From positions 1 to 41,965 of the IMG/VR virus record IMGVR_UViG_3300048912_000069: 41,965 bases of DNA; one strand, written 5' to 3'. The translations under genes and the position numbers were made by a program. The notes beneath the pieces were generated by a model, which searched no databases, was not told where the DNA came from, and saw only the letters and a program-made list of their open reading frames with translations. The stretch comes from a virus. Below are positions 14,398-29,788 of the stretch, one piece after another (positions within the stretch are counted from its first letter, which is position 1; every line of letters begins with the position of its first letter).

Positions 14398-14682
14398 TCA
14401 GTAACCCTTGGCGCGATCCATCGCGTAACCTTGGCCGACGATGCTGCCGGCCGTGTTGAGCTGTTGAGCGGCAGCGAGCTTCGCTTGCTCATCGTGCATG
14501 TCGATCGCGTTGAACTCGGCGCCGTTAAGCGCGTCCGTAATCAGGCTGGACGCGCTTTCCAGGCTATCCGCAAAGGCCCTCGTCGCGGGCAGACGATAGC
14601 GGCTGCCGTAACCATCGATTACCACGACGAAGCCGTTCGAAAGCGTGGTCAGGTTGATGCTGAAATTCTCAATCTTCGCCAT
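14398..14682 (-). CDS. Hypothetical early protein after RepA-like ATPase
   Basis: 94 residues from ATG at 14682 in a TGATG overlap with the replication gene's stop. The N-terminal half is a small beta domain (IENFSINLTTLSNGFVVVID) and the rest is helical and Ala-rich. No family recognised. Coupling suggests it works with, or is dosed by, the replication protein. Confidence 0.65.
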   Translation of the reverse strand: MAKIENFSINLTTLSNGFVVVIDGYGSRYRLPATRAFADSLESASSLITDALNGAEFNAIDMHDEQAKLAAAQQLNTAGSIVGQGYAMDRAKGY

Positions 14683-16247
14683 CACTCGTCTCCTTTTCCA
14701 AAATCCCGGTTGAGCACTGGGTTATCCATCCAGTCCAAATCTGGTTCGCGATCGGGCACCAAGTCTGGCTCCGGTTCGGGCCATGGTGCCTCATCCATCC
14801 AGTCCGGCGGCCCGGCCTCAAAGCCGGCGCCGTCGGTTATATCCGTAGGATATAGGGGGGTCGCCGGACGGACGCCGGTTTGTTTGTTTTCAATGACTTG
14901 CGCATGGGGTCGCCGGGGGTCACCGGAGGGGGTTACCGGAGGGGTCACCGGGCCAGAGGTCACCGGGGGTTGCCGGACTGCATTTCCGTTATATTCCTGA
15001 GACTTAGGTGTATGGTCACCGTGGGTCACCGGGGGGTTGCCGGATTTTGGGGTCACCGGGTCCGAAATGGCTCGGATTCCGACCTTCCAATGGTACGACG
15101 CATCGCGCCAAAGCTGGGCGTCGAGTTCGATCCAACCCAGGTGCAGGACGCGCTCAAATGCCGCTTCGAAGGCCCGCAATTTCATGCCCCCGGCTTCCGG
15201 CATACGGGCGAAAATCGACCCGAAATAATTGATGCCCTTGATGTGGCTGACGGCGCGTTTCTTGGCCGTCGCAGCGGCGAGGCAGCGCATGAAGCGGGCG
15301 TTTTCTTCGGCGTCTTGGGTCACCTGCGCGATGGTGCGGCGGTCCTCTTCAGGTAGCGCATCGCGCAGCACGAACGCGCCCTTGTGCCACATGAATTCGA
15401 GGTCGCCGCCGCGCTGGGCATAGTTCGCCTTTTCCCGGCGCATGACGCGATAATCGGGGTTCTCGGGCACGCCGGCATCGTTGACCGGGATTTCCATGAA
15501 CAGGCGACTGCGGACCTGATTTTCCCAAGCCGTGGATCCGCTATAGCTGTCGCCGGCCTTATTCGGGTGCCCGACGATCACGACTGCGCCGTCGATCGCG
15601 ATGGCGAGGCGGTTGCAGAGATTGATGAAGGCGGCGACCTGGTGCCGGTCATTCTCGTTTCCGGTGAACAGGTGCGCGGTGTTGTCGAGCACGAGGAATC
15701 GAATTCCGAGCTCGCGGCAGGCTTCCACGATCTGTTCGAACCGCGGCGCGGTGCGCATGCGGCCGTCCTGATCGAACGTCGCGAGCTCGTTGCCCATTTC
15801 GCCCTGCAGGGACAGCAAATGCAGCCTGCCCGACAGATGCGCCAGCGGCACGTTCAGCGCCTCGCAAATGGCTTTCTGGCGGCGGTGGAGCTCGTCCGCA
15901 TCGTCCTCGCAGGTGACGTAGAGCGCGGGCGCCTGCATCGTCTCGATGCCCAGGAACGGCAGGCCCATGGCAACGCATGTGCATTGCTGCTGCGATACAA
16001 GCGACTTGCCCGCCGCACCCTTGCCGGTCAGCAACGTGGCCTGGCGGTCTGGGATATAATCCTGAACCTTCCAATGGCGCTCAGGCGCGTCGGTGTCTGC
16101 CCATCCAGCCGGATCGATCAGGTTGAGCGGCGGAAGCGGCTCGCGCGTCGTGGGGTCCGGCTCGGGCGGAATCTCATCCATCCATGACGGGGGCTCATCC
16201 CGGATGGGATAAACGTTCCAGAGGTCATCATCGTTAGCCACGGGCAT
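14682..16247 (-). CDS. RepA-like AAA ATPase / replicative helicase candidate
   Basis: 521 residues from the ATG at 16247, chosen because GGGGGTGG precedes it; the in-frame start at 16292 lies 45 bases deeper in the previous gene. Walker A GKGAAGKS is at 75-82 and Walker B FLVLDN at about 184-189. VIVGHPNKAGDSYSGSTAW is a sensor region of the RepA/RecA-like hexameric helicases. Residues about 396-463 are a Pro/Val/Thr linker whose DNA forms the repeat array described separately. Short Trp-Met-Asp motifs occur near both ends (SWMDE, DWMDE, DWMDN). It probably unwinds the phage origin. Confidence 0.8.
   Translation of the reverse strand: MPVANDDDLWNVYPIRDEPPSWMDEIPPEPDPTTREPLPPLNLIDPAGWADTDAPERHWKVQDYIPDRQATLLTGKGAAGKSLVSQQQCTCVAMGLPFLGIETMQAPALYVTCEDDADELHRRQKAICEALNVPLAHLSGRLHLLSLQGEMGNELATFDQDGRMRTAPRFEQIVEACRELGIRFLVLDNTAHLFTGNENDRHQVAAFINLCNRLAIAIDGAVVIVGHPNKAGDSYSGSTAWENQVRSRLFMEIPVNDAGVPENPDYRVMRREKANYAQRGGDLEFMWHKGAFVLRDALPEEDRRTIAQVTQDAEENARFMRCLAAATAKKRAVSHIKGINYFGSIFARMPEAGGMKLRAFEAAFERVLHLGWIELDAQLWRDASYHWKVGIRAISDPVTPKSGNPPVTHGDHTPKSQEYNGNAVRQPPVTSGPVTPPVTPSGDPRRPHAQVIENKQTGVRPATPLYPTDITDGAGFEAGPPDWMDEAPWPEPEPDLVPDREPDLDWMDNPVLNRDFGKGDE
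14838..14854. repeat. 7-bp inverted repeat next to iteron array
   Basis: TATATCC and GGATATA separated by GTA form a perfect short palindrome in an AT-rich patch five bases before the first repeat of the array. It may be an origin accessory site or simply chance. Confidence 0.35.
14859..15059. repeat. Candidate origin iterons inside the replication gene
   Basis: Eleven copies of GGTYRCCGG (the eighth ends in T) start at 14859, 14908, 14918, 14931, 14943, 14958, 14968, 15014, 15024, 15035 and 15051. Six adjacent copies are 10-12 or 13 bases apart, close to one helical turn. The copies fall in all three coding frames of the overlapping protein, so a protein repeat alone does not explain them. 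An AT-richer stretch (14977-15012) splits the array. Lambda-type phages keep origin repeats within the initiator gene, so an origin is the best guess. Confidence 0.6.
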
Positions 16248-18939: not shown

Positions 18940-18968
18940 TGTATATGCGCATGCGTATAACGTGACAA
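18940..18968 (-). promoter_or_regulatory. Leftward early promoter (cro promoter)
   Basis: Reading leftward: -35 TTGTCA (18968-18963), a 17-base spacer, -10 TATACA (18945-18940). The predicted start is about 18933, at the cro ATG. The operator at 18944-18959 sits in the spacer, so a bound repressor would exclude RNA polymerase. Confidence 0.6.
18944..18959. promoter_or_regulatory. Operator OR1-like
   Basis: TATGCGCATGCGTATA, with a perfect inner palindrome CGCATGCG and TAT/ATA arms. It is the best match to the shared operator and overlaps the leftward early promoter. Confidence 0.65.
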
Positions 18969-18975
18969 GTGCCAT

Positions 18976-18991
18976 TATGCGCAGGCGTGTT
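18976..18991. promoter_or_regulatory. Operator OR2-like
   Basis: TATGCGCAGGCGTGTT matches OR1 at 13 of 16 bases. It is centred 32 bases (about three helical turns) from OR1, so co-operative binding from one face of the DNA is possible. It lies between the divergent promoters' start points and the CI start. Confidence 0.5.
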
Positions 18992-19024
18992 GGACCGCGC
19001 CCCTGGTCGGCGTACGCGCCCGAT

Positions 19025-19681
19025 ATGCCTGACCTCGCGCAGAAGATCAGAGCCATCCGGCTCGACCGGCAGATGAACCAAACTGAGTTTGGCGAGTTGC
19101 TTGGCGTCACCCAAGCGTCTGTTTCGCGTTGGGAAAAAGGCTCGATGCCAGACCCGCCGTTGCTGGCCCGCCTGGCCGAGATGGCTGGAGAAGACATCCG
19201 CCAGTTCCTTGGCGGCGAGTCGGACGTCTCCTTTGTGCCATCCTCAAGCCGGTTCATGGTGAGAGGCGCCGTTGCGGCGGGTGTGTGGGTGGAAGCATAC
19301 GAGTGGCCAGAGGAGCAGTGGGAGCCCTATACAGGCGGTGACCATGTGCGCGCGGAAGCTGGGCGCCGGTTTGGCCTGAAGGTCGAGGGCGACAGCATGA
19401 ACGAGGTGTATCCGCACGGGACCATCCTCGATTGCATCTCAACCCTGGACGGCGTGGTGGCCCATTCGGGCCAACGCGTTGTGGTTGTTCGTGAACGATC
19501 GGACGGCAAGCTTGAGGCTACCGTGAAGGAATATCTGCGCGACCAGGCCGGCAAAGAGTGGCTGGTGCCACGATCGACGAACCCGGCATTTCAGGTTCCG
19601 TTTTCTATGGATGATCCCGGGCCGGAGGTCGTTGACATTCGGATCATCGGCTTAGTGGTTGGCTCCTACCGCCCCGAATAG
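19025..19681 (+). CDS. CI-like repressor, S24/LexA-type self-cleaving
   Basis: 218 residues from ATG 19025. HTH_XRE at 5-45 (MNQTEFGELLGVTQASVSRW). The C-terminal S24 peptidase has a cleavage site A85-G86 (GAVAAGVWV), catalytic S124 in GDSMNEV and catalytic K168 in ATVKEYL. Such repressors hold lysogeny and cleave themselves when RecA filaments form after DNA damage. Frames reach back to 18962 and 18977, but those starts lie on the operators, and the HTH normally begins near the N-terminus. A weak promoter with TATAAC (18956-18961) could transcribe it. Confidence 0.9.
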   Translation: MPDLAQKIRAIRLDRQMNQTEFGELLGVTQASVSRWEKGSMPDPPLLARLAEMAGEDIRQFLGGESDVSFVPSSSRFMVRGAVAAGVWVEAYEWPEEQWEPYTGGDHVRAEAGRRFGLKVEGDSMNEVYPHGTILDCISTLDGVVAHSGQRVVVVRERSDGKLEATVKEYLRDQAGKEWLVPRSTNPAFQVPFSMDDPGPEVVDIRIIGLVVGSYRPE

Positions 19682-22118: not shown

Positions 22119-22301
22119 ATGCGTAATCTCGACTGGCGCGACATCAGTGTCGCCCGCACCCAAGCGATGCGCGATCTGGATGCGTATGCGTGGGCACCGC
22201 GCGCCGCGAACGGCACGGCGACCTTCCTCGCGAAGCTGACGATCTACGGCCTGACGCCGATTTGTCTGCTGGCATTCATCGTGACGAGGCTGGGGCTGTG
22301 A
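22119..22301 (+). CDS. Small membrane protein
   Basis: 60 residues from ATG 22119 behind GGGAAAGGAG. A C-terminal membrane segment (LTIYGLTPICLLAFIVTRLG) follows a basic helical region. Overlaps the exonuclease gene start (GTGA). Function unknown. Confidence 0.6.
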   Translation: MRNLDWRDISVARTQAMRDLDAYAWAPRAANGTATFLAKLTIYGLTPICLLAFIVTRLGL

Positions 22302-23194
22302 ACGCGCCCGTCCGCATAGAAACCGACGCCGAGTTCCGCGCGCGCGTGGTCGGGGCGTCCGAGGTTGCCGCTCTGTTCGGGCTGTCGCCTTGGTTGACCG
22401 AATACGAACTCTATCAGCGCAAGGTCGGCAAGATCGCCACGCCAGCATTCAACGAGGTGGTGGACGGCGTTCCGGTCAACGAGCGCGCCTTCTGGGGCGT
22501 GAAGCTGGAGCCACTGATCATCGAAGGAGCGTGCGAGCGCTGGGGCTATCAGCCCTGCGACGAGCCGCACCGGCTGGACAATGGCGCCGGATTGGGCGGC
22601 CATCCCGACCGCATCGTCATGTGTCCGGAGCGCGGCCGCGGCGTGCTAGAAGCCAAGATGGTCGATTGGCTGGAGGTCAAGAAGTGGGGCGACGAGCCGC
22701 CGCTGAATTACCTTCTGCAGAACATGTCATATCAGGGCCTCGCGGGCTGCGTCTGGGGCGACATGATCGTGCTGGTCGGCGGCAACGAGCTGCGCCGGTT
22801 CCAATACGATTTCCGGCCCAAGCTCTACGCAGAGATCGAACAGCGCGTCGCCACCTTCTGGGATCGCGTGCGCCGCAAGGACGCGCCGAAGCCGGATTAT
22901 ACCCGCGACGGGGCTGTCATCGCGGAAGTCTATAGCGGCGGGGCTGGGCTCACCAACCTCACGCACTGGAACCGAGGCGTCGTCCTGGCCGCCGAATATC
23001 TGGAGGCGAAGGAACGCGAGAAGGCCGCTCAGGCCGACGCCGAGGCCGCAAAGGCCGAGTTGCTGGAACGCATGGGCGACCATGACGCGGCGACGCTGGA
23101 AGGCTTCTACATCTCCGCGTCGATGGTGAAGGGCTCGACCTACACGGTCACCCGCAAGCCCTATCGTCGCTTCACCGTGAAGGAAGCGGCATGA
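22298..23194 (+). CDS. YqaJ-type recombination exonuclease
   Basis: 298 residues, GTG start at 22298. It has the lambda-exonuclease-like PD-(D/E)XK core of the YqaJ family: GASEVAALFGLSPWLTEYEL, LEPLIIE, GGHPDRIV (D104) and GVLEAKMVDW (E118, K120), then YLLQNMSYQGLAG. Members degrade one strand of a DNA end to expose a tail for an annealing protein. A long Ala/Glu/Lys helix near 235-265 precedes a basic end. It is followed by a DnaQ-type exonuclease and a putative annealing protein. Confidence 0.85.
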   Translation: MNAPVRIETDAEFRARVVGASEVAALFGLSPWLTEYELYQRKVGKIATPAFNEVVDGVPVNERAFWGVKLEPLIIEGACERWGYQPCDEPHRLDNGAGLGGHPDRIVMCPERGRGVLEAKMVDWLEVKKWGDEPPLNYLLQNMSYQGLAGCVWGDMIVLVGGNELRRFQYDFRPKLYAEIEQRVATFWDRVRRKDAPKPDYTRDGAVIAEVYSGGAGLTNLTHWNRGVVLAAEYLEAKEREKAAQADAEAAKAELLERMGDHDAATLEGFYISASMVKGSTYTVTRKPYRRFTVKEAA

Positions 23195-27444: not shown

Positions 27445-27747
27445 ATGGGTGTGCCAGTCGAGCGCTTGCCCGGTGTTTCGATCCGCGGGCGGTGGGGCCG
27501 CTTGCTCTCCGAAGACGATGCCGCCGAATATCTCGGCATCAGCCGCACGACGCTGCGAGATCAGGACATCGTAGCCAAGCGGCTTGGCCGGCGCGTGCTT
27601 TATGACATCCGCGACCTTGACCGCTTTGTCGACCGGATGGCGACCGCATCGGGGGCACCGGAGCCGATGGAGGGGCCTGACCCAGCGGCGGCGGCCGACG
27701 AGGAGGCCCGTTTCTTCGAGCGGAGGCGCAAGCGTGGCAAAAACTGA
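27445..27747 (+). CDS. AlpA/MerR-type DNA-binding protein, excisionase candidate
   Basis: 100 residues. Winged-helix core at about 20-65: LLSEDDAAEYLGISRTTLRD, then RVLYDIRDLDRFVDRM. This is the helix-turn-helix class of phage excisionases and AlpA regulators. It ends inside the start of the integrase gene (14-nt overlap), the usual partner arrangement, so it probably directs excision and may also regulate integrase translation. The C-terminal 35 residues are acidic then strongly basic. Confidence 0.75.
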   Translation: MGVPVERLPGVSIRGRWGRLLSEDDAAEYLGISRTTLRDQDIVAKRLGRRVLYDIRDLDRFVDRMATASGAPEPMEGPDPAAAADEEARFFERRRKRGKN

Positions 27748-28789
27748 CCTCGCCTTCACCTATATCGCGAAGGGAAAATACTGGCGGTTTCGGCATAAGA
27801 TCGTCGGCGACGTTGCCCTGCCGCACGATCCGAAGGTGCATTGGAGCCAGCAGCCGCACCAGGCCGCGTTCGCCGCCAGATATGCCGAGCTGCTCGCGAT
27901 GGTCGAATCCGGAAAAGCACGCGCCGCGCCAAGCAAGAAATCGTTCCGCTGGCTGATCAAGGCCTACCAGGAGAGCGAGGAGTTTAAGGCGCTCTCGGAT
28001 GCGACGCAGACCGATTACGTCCGGACGCTGCGCCTGCTCGACGAGGAGCTAGGCGACGTTCAGTTCGCGCTCGCAACGCGCGCCATGCTCAAGGCCGTCC
28101 GCGACGATTACGCCAAGACGACCCGCAAGGCGCACAAGATCAAGCAGATGCTCTCCCGGCTCTATAGCTGGGCAGGGGAGGAGGATCTGGTCCCGGTCGG
28201 CTTCAACCCGGCCGCCGACATCAAACGGCTGAAGCGCAAGGGCGGCGATAAGGAGATTGTCGTCTGGTCCGATGCAGAGGTGTCGATGTTCCTCGCCGCC
28301 TGCCCGGACCATATCCGAACGCCGGTCCTGATCGCGCTCTACACCGGCCAGCGCCGCGAGGACGTGGTCAGCATGACGTGGCAGCAGTTCCAGGGCGATA
28401 TCGTCCGCGTGCGCCAGAGCAAGACGCACGCGCTGCTCGACATCGCCTGCCACAGCGAATTGCGCCGGCACCTGGAATCACTGCCCAAGCGCGGCGTCGT
28501 CATCTGCACGACGCGCGCGGGCAAGGCCTTCACTGTGAACGGTCTCAGCCAGAACCTCCGCACCGCCGTGGCCAAGGTCAAGGGCATGCCGAACAACCGA
28601 TCGATCCACGGTCTGCGCTACGCGGCGGGCTCACGGATGGAGGAGGCGGGCTGCACCGTCGCGGAGATCGAATCCGTGCTCGGGCACGAAACCTTCAAGA
28701 TGGCGCTCAAATATGCCTCGCAGCGGCTGCGCGCCAAGGCTGCAGTCGAGAAGATGGAAGCCAAGGAAAGTTCGCACGATGCAGCCTAA
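27734..28789 (+). CDS. int: Tyrosine integrase
   Basis: 351 residues, GTG start at 27734. N-terminal arm-binding and core-binding domains (about 1-165) are followed by the catalytic domain with R207 (YTGQRRED), K230 (VRQSKTH), H292 and R295 (SIHGLRY), H318 (VLGHET) and nucleophile Y327 (ALKYASQ). All catalytic residues are present. It recombines attP with a bacterial attB, here probably a tRNA-Cys gene. The attP repeats begin inside the last codons of this gene. Confidence 0.93.
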   Translation: MAKTDLAFTYIAKGKYWRFRHKIVGDVALPHDPKVHWSQQPHQAAFAARYAELLAMVESGKARAAPSKKSFRWLIKAYQESEEFKALSDATQTDYVRTLRLLDEELGDVQFALATRAMLKAVRDDYAKTTRKAHKIKQMLSRLYSWAGEEDLVPVGFNPAADIKRLKRKGGDKEIVVWSDAEVSMFLAACPDHIRTPVLIALYTGQRREDVVSMTWQQFQGDIVRVRQSKTHALLDIACHSELRRHLESLPKRGVVICTTRAGKAFTVNGLSQNLRTAVAKVKGMPNNRSIHGLRYAAGSRMEEAGCTVAEIESVLGHETFKMALKYASQRLRAKAAVEKMEAKESSHDAA

Positions 28790-29053: not shown

Positions 29054-29788
29054 ATGACCCGCGTCGAACAGATCGGGCGCGCTACGCTGTACCTTGGGGA
29101 CTGTCTGGAGGTGCTAGCCAGCATCGAAACTGTTGATCAAGTCATCACCGATCCGCCCTATGAGCAGCTGATGCACGACCTGCATGCGTCGGTGAAGCTT
29201 AGGCGGAATGATGGCGGGTCGGAGCGCAAAGAACTTGGCTTTGCGGGTATCGACGAAATTCGCCCCGCCTTTGTCCAGCACGTCAAGCGGATCAACCGAG
29301 GTTGGCTCCTCGCGTTCTGCAACGTGGAAGGCGTCTGGCATTGGCGATCGGCGCTGATAGACGGTGGCCTGAAGTTCAAGACGACCTGCATCTGGGTAAA
29401 GCCCGATGCGACGCCGAAGCTTAACGGGCAAGGTCCGGCGCTCGCCTACGAATGCATCACGACGACATGGTGCGGCGCCGGTCATGCGCGCTGGAACGGC
29501 GGCGGCAAGCGGGGCGTGTTCACTTATCCGACGAACAATCCCGATCGCACCGGTTTACACCCAACGGAAAAGCCGGTCCGCCTCATGCGGGAGCTGGTCC
29601 ACCTGTTTTCGGACTCCGGCCAAGTTGTGCTGGACCCATTCATGGGCAGTGGCACCACGGGTGTTGCTGCCGTCCAACTGGGGCGCGACTTCATCGGCAT
29701 CGAGCGCGAGCCCAAGTATTTCGACATGGCCTGCAAGCGGATCGAGGACGCACAGCGCCAGGGCAATCTCTTCGGAGCCGCAGCATGA
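29054..29788 (+). CDS. DNA adenine methyltransferase (beta class)
   Basis: 244 residues. Motif IV DPPY (VITDPPYEQL) comes before motif I (LDPFMGSGTTG), the beta-class order, with GLHPTEKPVRLMRELV between them. DPPY favours N6-adenine over N4-cytosine methylation. No restriction enzyme partner is adjacent, so it is probably a solitary phage enzyme that protects phage DNA or alters host gene expression. It is the first gene after attP, and would lie at one end of the integrated prophage. Confidence 0.88.
   Translation: MTRVEQIGRATLYLGDCLEVLASIETVDQVITDPPYEQLMHDLHASVKLRRNDGGSERKELGFAGIDEIRPAFVQHVKRINRGWLLAFCNVEGVWHWRSALIDGGLKFKTTCIWVKPDATPKLNGQGPALAYECITTTWCGAGHARWNGGGKRGVFTYPTNNPDRTGLHPTEKPVRLMRELVHLFSDSGQVVLDPFMGSGTTGVAAVQLGRDFIGIEREPKYFDMACKRIEDAQRQGNLFGAAA

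Follow-up and report, generated by a model that had tools for sequence, protein, structure and literature searches.

A predicted iteron origin within the 3′-terminal part of the RepA-type helicase-initiator gene of a sphingomonad phage

We analysed a 41,965-base IMG/VR virus record (the window) that carries, on its minus strand, a gene previously described as RepA-like. This description is borne out by the match of its product to the RepA/AAA_25 helicase family (Table 1). The best PDB match of the protein is RSF1010 RepA, by profile (E 4e-24) and also by fold (Foldseek). In an AlphaFold2 model based on 115 aligned sequences, the helicase core and a winged-helix domain (wHTH, residues ~315-408) are confident, the latter with helices at residues 315-343, 357-363 and 372-384 and a beta-hairpin wing at 388-408. 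Over residues 411-536, model confidence declines, first to about 60 and further on to values below 50; this is a proline-rich tail whose coding DNA contains the repeat array described below, and the earlier view of this segment as a disordered linker agrees with the model. The window helicase has no match to the O family in Pfam or PHROGs, and no primase was found fused to it or among the window genes scanned. A short PPxWMDEAPP-like motif lies near both ends of the helicase (window residues ~34-46 and ~494-508) and also in relatives L013, L016 and L033; it could be a protein-interaction peptide. Elsewhere, the window encodes a repressor-like protein, a YqaJ-type recombinase, an integrase and an N6/N4 DNA methylase, all on the plus strand, and because of these genes the phage looks temperate and equipped with its own methylase.

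Table 1. Features of the helicase gene, the adjoining DNA module and other genes in the window.
Feature	Position	Strand	Evidence
RepA-type helicase-initiator gene (P0001), 536 aa	14682..16292	-	AAA_25, E 1.7e-35
RecA-fold helicase core, residues 54-248	15549..16133	-	Pfam AAA_25; pLDDT mostly >90
Winged-helix domain (wHTH), residues 315-408, proposed iteron reader	15069..15350	-	AlphaFold2 model; co-variation with repeats
Disordered tail, residues 412-536, encoded by proposed origin DNA	14682..15059	-	Low pLDDT
Iteron array, 10 exact GGTYRCCGG and 2 one-mismatch copies	14859..15059	+	Motif count; codon-resampled null
IHF-like box CAAGTCATTGAAA (YAAN4TTGAWW, relaxed form)	14888..14900	-	Motif match
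Hairpin 1, 7-bp stem, loop TAC (-)/GTA (+)	14838..14854	both	Exact palindrome; conserved in relatives
Hairpin 2, GC-rich stem with bulge	14808..14832	both	Folding; recurs in relatives
Repressor-like gene	18962..19681	+	Reading of the translation
YqaJ-type recombinase gene	22190..23194	+	
Integrase gene	27584..28789	+	
N6/N4 DNA methylase gene	29054..29788	+	

The array had been reported with eleven copies of GGTYRCCGG; the array stands, while the count becomes ten exact matches, every one on the plus strand, or twelve when two plus-strand copies with one mismatch are included (14870, GGACGCCGG; 15014, GGTCACCGT). The spacing, put earlier at 10-13 bases for many copies, is 10-16 bp inside clusters, and the array is interrupted twice, by 38 and by 46 bp. 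The whole 42 kb holds 14 exact matches, 10 of them concentrated within 201 bp, compared with ~2 on average and never more than 6 in 100 shuffles of the window. The exact copies in the array occupy all three codon phases (5/3/2), as the initial annotation had noticed. When synonymous codons were resampled with the protein unchanged, at most 7 copies appeared (mean 3.8) versus the 10 present, and this shortfall indicates that the peptide is not the explanation of the repeat.

Scanning viral contigs with the window helicase as a single protein returned no relative, and a profile was required. Two profile scans of IMG/VR provided 80 loci each (in one case, 80 viral relatives taken of 400 found), and a profile scan of GTDB genomes provided another 80, where most matches are in Sphingomonadales, with some in Rhodospirillales and others. 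Removal of near-copies by k-mer similarity alone left 185 modules from source collections that overlap. Within the 420 bp past the helicase match, 123 of these 185 exceed every one of 40 shuffles in repeats, and at least five repeat copies are present in 117, versus 3 of 185 control stretches from the same genes. About one third of the 185 have no array according to our repeat caller, which looks for 9-mers, allows one mismatch and may overlook degenerate arrays; many distant loci have no recognisable array or hairpin. A strict set of 114 non-redundant array loci, the window among them, was retained.

Across modules, the commonest start-to-start distance is 11 bp, echoed at 22-23, 34-35 and 44-45 bp, and copies are strongly biased in strand (772 on one versus 46 on the other). 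The repeat unit itself varies by lineage and includes TGCACCGACCC, TGCGCCAACCC, CCGATGACC, CCGGAAACC, CCCGAACAC and TGCGGGACGGT, among others. An IMG/VR scan for a literal triple of CCGGYRACC yielded 62 stretches, of which none encodes a relative of the helicase and many are simply tandem repeats or peptide repeats, indicating that the spelling is clade-specific and that the conserved thing is the array. The suggested check, whether copies persist as the linker protein diverges, comes out negative for the GGTYRCCGG spelling and positive for a phased direct-repeat array in the same slot. As for the opposite case, in which the PVT peptide pattern would be kept without the DNA repeat, relatives keep neither PVT nor the GGTYRCCGG spelling, yet they keep the array.

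The position of the array relative to the open reading frame differs among the 114 loci: it lies inside the ORF in 56, runs across the stop codon in 24 and, in 34, is found past the gene, entirely in non-coding DNA. Each of the 56 embedded arrays draws on several frames, 44 of them on three, and 51 of the 56 do better than their codon-resampled nulls. The wholly non-coding arrays in about a third of loci show that it is the DNA, rather than the encoded protein, that is under selection, in line with what had been suggested from the window's repeats. We regard this as decisive: the module exists as DNA, and whether a reading frame runs through it is incidental. Alternatively, the repeats could belong to the protein, as a low-complexity Pro/Thr linker of which the DNA repeat is a by-product, and the proline-rich, disordered tail speaks for this; we rejected this reading, to which we give next to no credence, because the multi-frame use, the codon-resampling nulls and the 34 non-coding arrays contradict it. 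A FastTree tree was built from 85 helicase-wHTH sequences, in which the most identical relative of the window is L093 from Sphingobium sp. YR768 (72%). Its well-supported branches require the embedded state to have changed at least 12 times. Our best reading of these roughly 12 tree changes is that the ORF end has moved over the module repeatedly.

Several loci deserve separate mention. In Wolbachia phage WO (L010), a six-copy AGTTGGCAA array sits at and just past the end of a RepA-like gene (4218 onward), and the arrangement may extend to this phage. A human faecal phage contig encoding a relative (L009, MT837765.1) stops at the apparent start of a CCCCAAACG-like array, in its last 40 bases; the contig break is perhaps due to the repeats. 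Twelve records of about 10-14 kb carry the helicase with a terminase nearby (L019, L035, L038, L185, L188, L189, L191, L199, L204, L208, L209 and L211), several of them from isolate genomes. These may be Sphingomonadales phage satellites or mere fragments.

Besides repeats, the modules share a box and two hairpins. The box, YAAN4TTGAWW, is found in 38 of 114 modules versus 0-1 loci in shuffles and controls, and shows a strand bias (coding strand in 38 loci versus 5). We take it to approximate the IHF consensus (WATCAANNNNTTR on the opposite strand). Its middle four bases are preferentially GTCA, and the window copy fits the relaxed form only. Hairpin 1 is the 7-bp palindrome noted before, and in the window it is exact (TATATCC-GTA-GGATATA on the plus strand). 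It had been listed, together with AT-rich patches, as flanking or splitting the array; it is AT-rich here, but it is more than a flank, being a conserved hairpin with GC-rich arms in many relatives. We recognised it in 84 of the 114 array loci, the other 30 being without it. Perfect hairpins with arms of at least 6 and loops of 3-4 number 116 in the 114 modules, versus 15 and 23 in two control sets, and 66 of the 116 have the loops TAC, TAAA or TATA, which are absent among the loops listed for controls.

The stem of hairpin 1 covaries. In the TAC class, both sides vary at all seven pairs, with a covariation score of 0.784 versus 0.200 when shuffled and at most 0.275 when slid; the inner three pairs had a part in selecting this class, the outer four had none. 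Over all loop classes, 80% of outer stem cells are Watson-Crick, versus 17-28% in the few control candidates. Hairpin 2 follows directly behind hairpin 1. In the window its stability relative to shuffles is modest and it is weak taken alone, but it recurs in relatives. We asked whether the hairpins might be RNA elements, a terminator or mRNA structure apart from any origin. Hairpin 2 does resemble a terminator stem and is followed by a T-run in L017 and L172, but the T-run is absent in most loci, and a terminator in embedded cases would truncate the helicase mRNA. Moreover, mismatches in hairpin 1 include 8 G-T and 16 A-C, and because G-T pairs are no commoner than A-C, a DNA rather than an RNA structure is favoured; Rfam returned no match. 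We therefore consider an RNA role unlikely.

The spelling of the repeats co-varies with the wHTH domain of the helicase protein. With helicase identity held fixed, repeat similarity correlates with wHTH identity at a partial rho of 0.319, where the largest of 500 permutations reached 0.101, although these permutations treat kin sequences as exchangeable and somewhat overstate the certainty; with wHTH held fixed, the correlation with helicase identity is 0.091. Individual pairs illustrate this: the window and L093 share 80% identity in the helicase and 55% in the wHTH, with repeats 0.57 alike; L093 and L176 share 65% and 71%, respectively, with repeats 0.92 alike. Physical linkage between wHTH and array may inflate this correlation. 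The strongest wHTH column for repeat co-variation is S399 at the wing tip, followed by W402, F361 and G353. These patterns provide evolutionary support for the proposed binding of the array DNA by the RepA-like protein, since repeat spelling tracks its wHTH.

Two other roles for the array must be weighed against this co-variation. Terminase-subunit-bound repeats together with an IHF site are the layout of lambda cosB, and the array could be a packaging (cos/pac) site of this kind: in the window, TerS and TerL lie ~1 kb past the array, and 41 of the 114 loci have a TerL-like ORF downstream, frequently no more than 1 kb away. Yet repeat similarity is not tied to TerL, the only terminase subunit compared (rho 0.015; partial -0.03), while the wHTH correlation persists at 0.377 with TerL and helicase both held fixed. 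In L026, L029, L194 and L196, it is an SSB gene that lies downstream (228-518 bp). Because the repeat spelling ignores TerL while the wHTH signal persists, we judge a packaging site very unlikely. Alternatively, the same wHTH could read the array as an autoregulatory, copy-control or partition site rather than as a replication start. Plasmid iterons are also used in copy control, and the co-variation would suit any site read by the wHTH. Such a site is nevertheless quite unlikely in our estimation: the array is at the 3′ end of the gene, distant from the promoter, a single array per locus with conserved hairpins is what an origin would be expected to look like, and the known precedents at such a position are origins (PMC7581432, PMC6092414).

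We consider it likely that this temperate sphingomonad phage carries an iteron replication origin, and that this origin overlaps the 3′-terminal coding sequence of the initiator that acts on it. Arrays in the same slot, multi-frame use, helical phasing, wHTH co-variation, a covarying hairpin and known precedents together argue for this reading. In the mechanism that we propose from comparative sequence data, wHTH domains would bind the helically phased iterons, perhaps assisted by an IHF-type bend in the middle of the array, and would thereby place a RepA-type hexameric helicase ring at an adjoining region of strand opening. The two hairpins beyond the array would act in single-stranded or extruded form and would most likely mark the start of priming, the weakest step, which leans on RSF1010. 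Binding, melting, the IHF role, priming and the origin activity of the module are all predictions of this kind. GC skew of the window gives no origin signal.

The relatives vary in how they might prime. Upstream of a common helicase core, Pfam finds a Prim-Pol domain in L019 and L044 and a DnaG-type Zn-finger/Toprim in L026; L009 has a weak Toprim match, and L013 and the window are without an N-terminal primase domain. A Toprim regular expression had matched almost none of the relatives before Pfam revealed these differing types. Hairpin loop class shows no pattern with primase type, in a typing that is incomplete and left 37 ORFs as 'other'. We put at about even the chance that these loci represent a large, apparently undescribed class of phage replicon, found for the most part in Sphingomonadales. 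In such a class, a RepA-type helicase-wHTH initiator would travel with a cis module of iterons, IHF-like box, covarying hairpin with a near-fixed loop (TAC/TAAA/TATA) and GC-rich hairpin, with a sliding ORF end, wHTH and repeat specificities that co-evolve in matched pairs, and hairpins that serve as structure-specific initiation sites for interchangeable primases (Prim-Pol, DnaG-type or host). No account of such a module was found in the open literature searched, a search outside which most subscription papers fall.

These results supply a predicted origin for a large, poorly studied group of phages and prophages (114 non-redundant loci). They also offer a natural experiment, in that lineages differ in whether the same predicted origin is translated. 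Because a wing-tip residue and the repeat change in pairs, initiator-origin specificity is open to swap tests, and the hairpin with its near-fixed loop represents a DNA structure conserved at a predicted phage origin.

The helicase-initiators of SaPI, PICI and SCCmec elements are among the closest known systems. SaPI Rep reads iterons immediately 3′ of its own gene, and the SaPI, PICI and SCCmec Cch2 helicase-initiators belong to the DUF927 or D5/Primase_Cterm families (PMC7581432); in PICI origins, an AT-rich region is flanked by two sets of iterons (PMC6092414). As in SaPI/PICI rep-ori and SCCmec Cch2, a C-terminal domain of the helicase-initiator is predicted here to read iterons at the end of, or directly 3′ of, its gene, and a primase is fused in some members. 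In contrast, the window protein is of the RepA/AAA_25 family, one array is followed by hairpins rather than two sets flanking an AT-rich region, and the array often lies within the ORF. In this last respect the locus resembles lambda, whose origin lies within the O gene (PMC6022878), since the predicted origin is inside the gene of its proposed reader. However, O is not a helicase and recruits a separate one, whereas the window protein is itself a helicase with no detected relation to O, and here the ORF end shifts over the module, leaving it coding or non-coding by lineage.

RSF1010, whose oriV system comprises RepA, RepB' and RepC, shares with the window a RepA-family hexameric helicase and provides the closest solved helicase. 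Its iterons are read by a separate protein, RepC, whereas the reader is apparently fused to the helicase here. The RSF1010 primase recognises a hairpin, ssiA, as its initiation site (PMC4434180). The one-chain layout of phage P4 alpha would be matched by those relatives that have a Prim-Pol or DnaG-type domain at the N terminus. The P4 protein combines primase, helicase and origin binding in a single chain; it differs in having an SF3-type rather than a RepA-type helicase and in having ori and crr outside the gene. Because helicase family, single array, self-helicase initiator and hairpins differ, our best reading is that the module functions like SaPI/PICI rep-ori and lambda ori-in-O yet is a member of neither.
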